Shown one piece after another: positions 45,274 to 46,047 of a stretch of DNA of 64,000 bases. The notes beneath the pieces were generated by a model, which had not been told where the DNA came from, did no database searches, and saw only the letters and a program-made list of their open reading frames with translations. The stretch comes from Cavenderia fasciculata. Taxonomy: Eukaryota > Evosea > Eumycetozoa > Acytosteliales > Cavenderiaceae. Location of the stretch: positions 806,001-870,000 of the forward strand of contig NW_004457737.1 of NCBI RefSeq assembly GCF_000203815.1, written 5' to 3'. The position numbers and the translations under genes were made by a program. Within the stretch, counting starts at the first letter, position 1. Each line of letters begins with the position of its first letter.

Positions 45274-45329
45274 GCGTTTATGGTTAAATGGTAAAATATT
45301 TCACAAGGAAGTGTCTAATCATTCCTCTC
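45274..45329 (+). pseudogene. Decayed copy of the tRNA-Gly gene
   Basis: Bases 45254-45278 repeat exactly the 20-base 5' flank and first five bases of the intact tRNA-Gly at 45715 (tcaaacatccaatgtgcatt then gcgtt). The D arm is kept (tatggttaaatggta) but four bases of the anticodon region are lost, and the T arm has drifted so that the ttcga box is gone. It cannot fold as a tRNA. Because the 5' flank is also copied, this is a segmental duplication and not a retrocopy. Confidence 0.8.
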
Positions 45330-45714
45330 CTATTAAAAAAAATAATAATAATTTCAAAAAAAATATATATACCTGTAAAGTTAAAAAATATTTGCTTTGG
45401 ACTGGAAATCATAGGCCAATGATAGTTGGTCTAGATTCATTCTAAACAAGATGACTTTATATTATTATATCATGTGGACAAGATAATATTTTTTCAAATG
45501 AATTTGGCCCTTTGATTTTTTTCAATTTTTTCGTTTTTTTGGACAAATATCTTGGCCCTAACCGAGTCCCTACTTGAGGACTCTGACCCTTTAATATACT
45601 TGTTCAATGAAATTGTCCAATGATAGTTGATATACCAATAAAGTGCTCTATAATTTTTAAAAATATCGGTATAAATACCGCGATTTTTTTCCAATCAAAC
45701 ATCCAATGTGCATT
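45330..45714. other. Spacer between tRNA relic and tRNA-Gly
   Basis: A 385-base spacer. It has a perfect 6-bp hairpin (gagtcc / ggactc, 8-base loop) at about 45564-45583, and directly upstream of the tRNA a 6-bp inverted repeat with two-base centre (cggtat aa ataccg) at 45667-45680. The phrase ccaatgatagttg occurs twice, near 45416 and 45617. The short overlapping frames are not coding. Confidence 0.5.
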
Positions 45715-45785
45715 GCGTTCATGGTTAAATGGTATAATATTTCCCTTCCAAGGAAGTGTCCCGGGTTCGATTCCCGGTGAACGCA
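45715..45785 (+). tRNA. tRNA-Gly (anticodon UCC)
   Basis: A 71-base tRNA with a perfect 7-bp acceptor stem (gcgttca / tgaacgc), discriminator A, D arm with ggttaaatggta, anticodon stem tttcc / ggaag, loop cttccaa with anticodon TCC at 45747-45749, and a perfect T arm ccggg-ttcgatt-cccgg. Both internal promoter boxes are intact. No intron. A T7 tract at 45791-45797, six bases after the gene, is a good Pol III terminator. The tRNA end forms the first unit of the satellite that follows. Confidence 0.96.
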
Positions 45786-46047
45786 CAGGGTTTTTTTAGG
45801 GTTTCCTGTTGCTGCTGGGTGGACGCACAGGGTTTTTTTAGGGTTTCCTGTTGCTGCTGGTGGACGCACAGGGTTTTTTTAGGGTTTCCTGTTGCTGCCG
45901 GTGGACGCACAGGGTTTTTTTAGGGTTTCCTGTTGCTGCCGGTGAACGCACAGGGTTTTTTTAGGGTTTCCTGTTGCTCCCGGTTGCATTGTTTGTTGGT
46001 GGCCACCGGTGAACGCACAGGGTTTTTTTAGGGTTTCCTGTTGCTGC
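45774..46047. repeat. Tandem satellite seeded by the tRNA-Gly 3' end
   Basis: Six units. Period is 42, 41, 41, 41 and then 67 bases. Each unit begins with the last bases of the tRNA (ccggtgaacgca or the variant tggacgca), then caggg, T7, agggtttcctg and ttgctgc. Unit starts (at the acgca word) are 45781, 45823, 45864, 45905, 45946 and 46013. Units are nearly identical, so the array is young. Each unit carries its own T7 tract and an acagg / cctgt stem around it. Between units 5 and 6 is an insert with a 10-bp palindrome (ggtggccacc, 45998-46007). The units give overlapping open frames on the minus strand, which are artefacts of the repeat. Confidence 0.92.
45791..45797 (+). terminator. Pol III T7 terminator of tRNA-Gly
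   Basis: Seven T residues starting six bases after the tRNA discriminator base. Tracts of this length stop RNA polymerase III in dictyostelids and other eukaryotes. The same tract recurs in each downstream satellite unit. Confidence 0.75.

Follow-up and report, generated by a model that had tools for sequence, protein, structure and literature searches.

External B boxes lie downstream of the tRNA genes of Dictyostelium discoideum. The closest known system to the one described here is that of Entamoeba histolytica and E. dispar, in which tRNA-linked repeats, generally of 7-12 bp with a few up to 44, sit between tRNA genes in long tandem arrays, and for which slippage and fork barriers formed by Pol III genes have been proposed (PMC2652664). 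Because these repeats lie between arrayed tRNA genes, cause and effect are hard to separate in Entamoeba. In dictyostelids the zone 3′ of tRNA genes is occupied by the mobile elements Df_Skipper-2 and TRE3, which are insertions of their own sequence, not copies of tRNA trailers (PMC5006619). Yeast offers additional T-tracts past the first terminator, which are not described as tandem copies in the sections available (PMC9278858). Among the matches listed in a search of the open-access literature, none described dispersed tRNA genes with tandem repeats at their 3′ ends.

The window, a 64,000-nucleotide stretch of Cavenderia fasciculata on the contig that we label C1 (C12, C14, C15, and C21 being other contigs of the same genome), contains a single tRNA gene, an intact tRNA-Gly(UCC) on the forward strand at 45715..45786 (ARAGORN; Rfam RF00005, 67.4 bits over 45715-45785), with a B box, GGTTCGATTCC, matched by pattern on the same strand at 45764-45774. 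The initial annotation had described its 3′ end as turned into a tandem satellite, and this is borne out. The array, also on the forward strand, has six units, each made of the last 12-13 bases of the gene, CAGGG, a T7 tract, and then AGGGTTTCCTGTTGCT. Unit 1 (45774..45815, 42 bp; placed by TRF and core positions) is the end of the tRNA gene followed by the T7 tract and AGGGTTTCCTGTTGCTG, that is, the gene's own trailer, so that the six repeats claimed are six in total and not six beyond the gene. Next come units 2-4, each of 41 bp, and an equally long regular portion of unit 5 (45816..45979, borders counted from core positions), then 26 extra bases in unit 5 (45980..46005, borders approximate, from comparison of the units) and unit 6 (46006..46047, from core positions). 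Unit spacings are 42, 41, 41, 41, and 67, the last of these because unit 5 holds 26 more bases; the period of 41-42 bases given earlier thus holds for the first four only. A stretch similar to the 26 extra bases occurs in unit 1 of the C21 locus.

The exact repeat begins 13 bases before the end of the gene, and the gene end itself, G(G)TG(A/G)ACGCAC, is present in every unit. A 25-mer core, ACAGGGTTTTTTTAGGGTTTCCTGT, occurs in six mismatch-free copies (45785, 45827, 45868, 45909, 45950, and 46017), while none of 100 shuffles contained a match at up to three mismatches. TRF reported 45774-45984 with period 41, 95% matches, and a score of 378. The near absence of divergence noted earlier needs one correction: GGACGC stands in units 2-4, GAACGC in the gene and in units 5-6. 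The acagg/cctgt stem can be drawn, but it folds no better than shuffled sequence: in one phase of the unit z was -0.03, with 81 of 200 shuffles as stable, and in the other 0.64, with 146 of 200. With both phases at chance level, we rejected the stem as a functional RNA element. Two non-tRNA Rfam matches fell short of the gathering scores and were discarded, one to an antisense plastid model overlying the tRNA (34.7 vs 65.7 bits) and one to snoU13 (17.7 vs 46), and the exact unit core was absent from the viral and prokaryotic contigs searched.

A genome search (31 Mb) found four intact copies of the tRNA-Gly gene, on C1, C12, C14, and C21, and all four have the unit. At each of them a truncated tRNA-Gly copy lies 0.33-1.35 kb upstream; in the window this is a 3′-truncated pseudogene at 45274..45315 (forward strand), 441 bp from the intact gene. 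The paralogous arrays differ in unit sequence and in unit number, with six units on C1, three on C12, one on C14 (followed by the start of a second, interrupted by an LTR), and five on C21 (four, and a fifth past an LTR remnant). Genome-wide, the core has 12 matches at up to three mismatches, a count that omits most C21 units as too divergent, and 11 of these lie at the four tRNA-Gly loci, so that confinement of the unit to the vicinity of tRNA genes, proposed as a check at the outset, very nearly holds. The stray match, C14:1610559, lies about 490 bp beyond a tRNA-Ile gene and adjoins another copy of the LTR; the flank that follows this match also follows the last unit on C21, suggesting that LTRs have exchanged sequence.

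Between C1 and C12, similarity extends over 689 bp (82%) around the gene and on its upstream side and over 1039 bp (78%) running downstream, indicating segmental copying of the locus. The last unit is followed by GCTGCGGTCACCG on C1 and by GCTCCCAATTTT on C12. Since both loci are multi-unit while their flanks differ by about 20%, the first duplication at the Gly gene probably predates the spread of the locus. The C14 gene (C14:2202598-2202669, locus L012) carries a paired change in its acceptor stem, GCGTCCA/TGGACGC for GCGTTCA/TGAACGC. The GGACGC variant recurs in unit 2 of the C12 array and, in the window, in units 2-4, and its presence in both this gene and array units may reflect sequence exchange between arrays and genes.

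We then surveyed tRNA genes chosen by Rfam score or by B-box pattern, with their flanks disregarded, plus four genes found by chance in stretches fetched for these or for the Gly loci. The sample comprises 88 distinct ARAGORN genes, all from one assembly; its Rfam part comes from the best 63 candidates and its B-box part from among the matches listed, with 11 B-box sites that had no ARAGORN tRNA and repeat fetches of one locus left out, and with L127, which was found via its repeat unit, not counted. An array was scored when TRF gave at least 60, with a period of at least 9, a unit GC of at least 12%, and a start between -20 and +25 of the tRNA 3′ end. Such arrays occurred at 14 of the 88 genes, compared with 24 of 3569 bins of equal size taken from other parts of these loci and including coding DNA (binomial p 1.6e-15), and at 12 of 84 genes when Gly was excluded (p 6.2e-13); related loci were counted one by one, so these p-values are too small. 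Shifting the score cut-off gave 14/88 vs 35/3569 at 50 or above and 13/88 vs 11/3569 at 80 or above. T4-T9 runs elsewhere had an array at 20 of 2549 anchors (Fisher p 6e-13), a control that does not support slippage of T-runs as the whole cause. Only one of 58 tRNA 5′ ends was abutted by an array. In an earlier run on 76 of the genes, 10 arrays fell into the bin covering the 3′ end (45 bp wide), and the next eight bins combined held another 10.

The tRNA-Gly array is thus one of several and not a one-off. Nine of 21 anticodon families have arrays, with unrelated units: three genes for Arg(tct), two each for Lys(ttt), Gly, and Met, and one each for Asn, Thr(tgt), Arg(acg), Glu(ctc), and Val(aac). 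By the TRF rule, 74 of the 88 genes lack an array, among them three large families, Lys(ctt) (0/11), Ile (0/8), and Phe (0/6); the rule leaves uncounted the visible units at Gly C14, Gly C21, Thr L038, and Asn L063. The unit of each array is a copy of that gene's own trailer. Near-perfect examples are the arrays of Thr (TTTGTTGCCAA, 11 bp x21), Arg(acg) (CTTTTGTTTGTTGTT, 15 bp x20), Glu (CTTTTTGGCTTGGTAC, 16 bp x7), and Val (GTTTTTTGTTT, 11 bp x9). Searching the whole genome with array patterns about 1.5-3 units long placed every match at a tRNA 3′ flank: 20/20 for Thr, 18/18 for Arg(acg), 15/15 for Glu, 7/7 for Val, and 5/5 for Arg(tct), whose pattern was 27 bases of a 39-bp unit. The other patterns exceed one unit, so single units could go undetected by them, and the Val pattern is its own mirror image, which makes its backward control (7 hits) uninformative. 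The Glu pattern led to a new site on C15, where the DNA contains a second tRNA-Glu(ctc) with an array directly 3′ of it, the repeated unit having two bases changed. This is consistent with homogenization within the array, and separate expansion of two diverged trailers would fit too. Longer, two-copy trailer duplications spaced 137-186 bp apart were seen at L034, L035, L060, L062, L069, and L121, which carry Lys, Asn, Ile, and Phe genes.

The upstream side of the tRNA genes has a feature of its own. Of 58 tRNA genes, 24 have a TATAAAT in the 70 bp preceding them, mostly between -41 and -45, compared with 27 of 963 background windows; in the window, it starts 45 bp before the tRNA-Gly gene, within a CGG-TATAAATA-CCG element (45667..45680, forward strand). 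The arms flanking it are often complementary in a family-specific manner (CGG..CCG, CGC..GCG, GCG..CGC, GCC..GGC). Complementary pairs at arm positions 1-3 number 14, 11, and 12 among 21 distinct sequences (shuffle means 9.8, 7.2, and 8.4), and the sum was reached by 3 of 5000 shuffles, with relatedness among the sequences left in.

Some downstream copies include tRNA bases. They start at -13 for Gly, -14 for Ile, and -11 for Phe, in each case 0-3 nt from the 3′ edge of the B box, a pattern of three cases noticed after the fact; the Ile and Phe copies are single and about 170 bp away. External B boxes of D. discoideum resemble these copies as downstream stretches similar to part of a tRNA gene, but the Gly copies of C. 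fasciculata start at the 3′ edge of the B box, and the consensus GGTTC(A/G)ANNCC was found in none of the 88 genes within 300 bp downstream (a shorter stretch at some loci). At the Gly junction TGCTCCCGGTG, trailer CTCCC is joined to T-arm TTCCCGG with a match of about four bases, and this would be the oldest Gly junction.

The best reading of these data, to which we assign a probability of roughly 0.55, is that Pol III genes have at their 3′ edge a mutational hot spot for tandem duplication, followed by slippage and homogenization, and that the Gly array is a product of this hot spot and not a device peculiar to tRNA-Gly. Of the outcomes that the initial annotation offered, a slippage product fits best. 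TFIIIC on the B box and Pol III pausing at the terminator would hinder replication forks, after which the nascent strand could re-anneal via a short match, in the case of Gly probably the TCCC common to the tRNA T-arm and the trailer CTCCC, and template switching would produce a tandem duplication. Slippage and unequal exchange would then expand and homogenize the array. Because the upstream tRNA copy stays intact, such duplications would be cheap and would persist. Fork pausing at tRNA genes is reported for yeast (PMC5368702); according to the same review, however, tRNA genes of wild-type fission yeast cells pause forks yet are not recombination hot spots, which counts against a mutational hot spot (PMC5368702). 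More tentatively, and with some doubt, the TFIIIC-bound B box may act as a fixed wall, such that forks arriving at an active tRNA gene from its 3′ side would resume by switching templates immediately outside this wall, and the gene would thereby give off copies of the stretch that runs from the B box to a short match close by.

That selection, instead, keeps the arrays as banks of Pol III terminators, every unit adding one more against read-through into close neighbors in a gene-dense genome, is a reading we consider unlikely, although parts of the evidence favor it. Units of six of the nine families contain a T4-T7 tract (Gly T7, Lys T6, Val T6, Met T5 and T7, Glu T5, Arg(acg) T4), and yeast polymerases that pass a weak primary terminator were stopped at secondary ones or with Sen1 (PMC9278858). 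The first 27 trailer bases are, moreover, identical at the C1, C12, and C14 Gly genes despite diverged flanks: the 60 bases before the gene show 6-8 differences among the three, and C1 and C12 differ at 0 of 27 trailer positions vs 8 of 60 just upstream of the gene. The C21 locus was excluded from this comparison, as its 12 of 27 differences are partly due to one inserted base in an ungapped alignment, although its units genuinely differ. Trailer identity of this kind suggests conservation beyond neutral drift and counts against the hot-spot reading, as does the lack of arrays, by the TRF rule, in the large Lys(ctt), Ile, and Phe families. Yet the units of Thr(tgt), Asn, and Arg(tct) lack any T4+ tract, a point on which they also differ from the yeast secondary terminators; at the Thr locus the first T4+ run comes at +234, behind the array; the Arg(tct) genes already have T5-T8 runs ahead of their arrays; and most genes, the 74 noted above, do without an array by the TRF rule. 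With three families lacking the tract, selected terminator redundancy, and with it the guaranteed termination suggested at the outset, is hardly a general explanation. Some arrays, that of Gly above all, may be kept in part through their additional terminators, but the sites at which arrays arise are not explained in this way. Retention of the arrays as buffers that absorb mobile elements inserting 25-100 bp past tRNA genes is less probable still. For Df_Skipper-2, positions 26-97 bp downstream of tRNA genes are reported (PMC5006619), an LTR or LTR remnant lies within or after the units at two of the four tRNA-Gly loci, and element-like ends, recognized by motifs of three repeated sequences that miss the C21 remnant, lie at +35..+100 past 12 of the 88 tRNA genes and at +200 past one. 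The idea of a landing zone is to this extent upheld, but the genes concerned are mostly without arrays: repeat units occur at only two of the 13 loci, Gly C14 and Thr L038, and there is no sign that units attract or protect.

Two further explanations are very improbable. Assembly of short-unit arrays, which reach about 300 bp, can be difficult, and we worked from one assembly, in which reads might be mis-joined or units mis-counted; nevertheless, the same edge is hit in nine families with different units, unit numbers and variants differ among the four Gly loci, and the enrichment is confined to one position. Spread of the array by a tRNA-derived, SINE-like mobile element would explain the four similar loci, which lie on four contigs and each combine a pseudogene with a gene, but the similarity of C1 and C12 continues through both flanks with no defined element borders encountered, four intact copies were found in 31 Mb, and unrelated arrays adjoin other tRNA genes.

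Repeated sequences also recur downstream of the surveyed tRNA genes. An LTR beginning TGTAATGAGAATGGACC, with 24 matching places in the genome, lies downstream of tRNA genes at L012 (C14), L010 (C21), L038, L106, L111, L123, and L013; it is possibly a candidate Df_Skipper-2, its position fitting the range quoted above (PMC5006619). A second sequence, AAGAAGGAATGAAGGAAGG, begins at +36..+100 past the tRNA genes of L061, L082, L113, L118, and L120, and a third, GTGAGCATAGTGTCATAC, at +48..+50 past those of L089 and L100, both being termed mobile solely because they recur. L082 and L115 look like the filled and empty versions of one site.

The arrays resemble the Entamoeba repeats in that short tandem repeats adjoin tRNA genes of an amoebozoan, here at 14 of 88 genes (PMC2652664). 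They differ from them in three respects: some periods in C. fasciculata (138-141 and 102 bp) are above the published range; the repeats begin at the 3′ end, seldom adjoining the 5′ end, with some units including the last bases of the tRNA; and the tRNA genes are dispersed instead of lying in long tandem arrays (PMC2652664). Besides the single gene in the 64-kb window, there is one per 5-8 kb locus, except on C12, where a different tRNA gene lies about 3.5 kb away; in other places a few different tRNA genes are spaced about 1 kb from one another. Dispersed genes, each array with its own unit, make the roles of 3′ position, terminator, and B box testable gene by gene, and the test system is a free-living amoeba. 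If strains differ in unit number, the arrays would be usable as markers. Should the B box indeed act as a wall to replication forks, the arrays would constitute a gene-by-gene readable record of conflict between replication and transcription.
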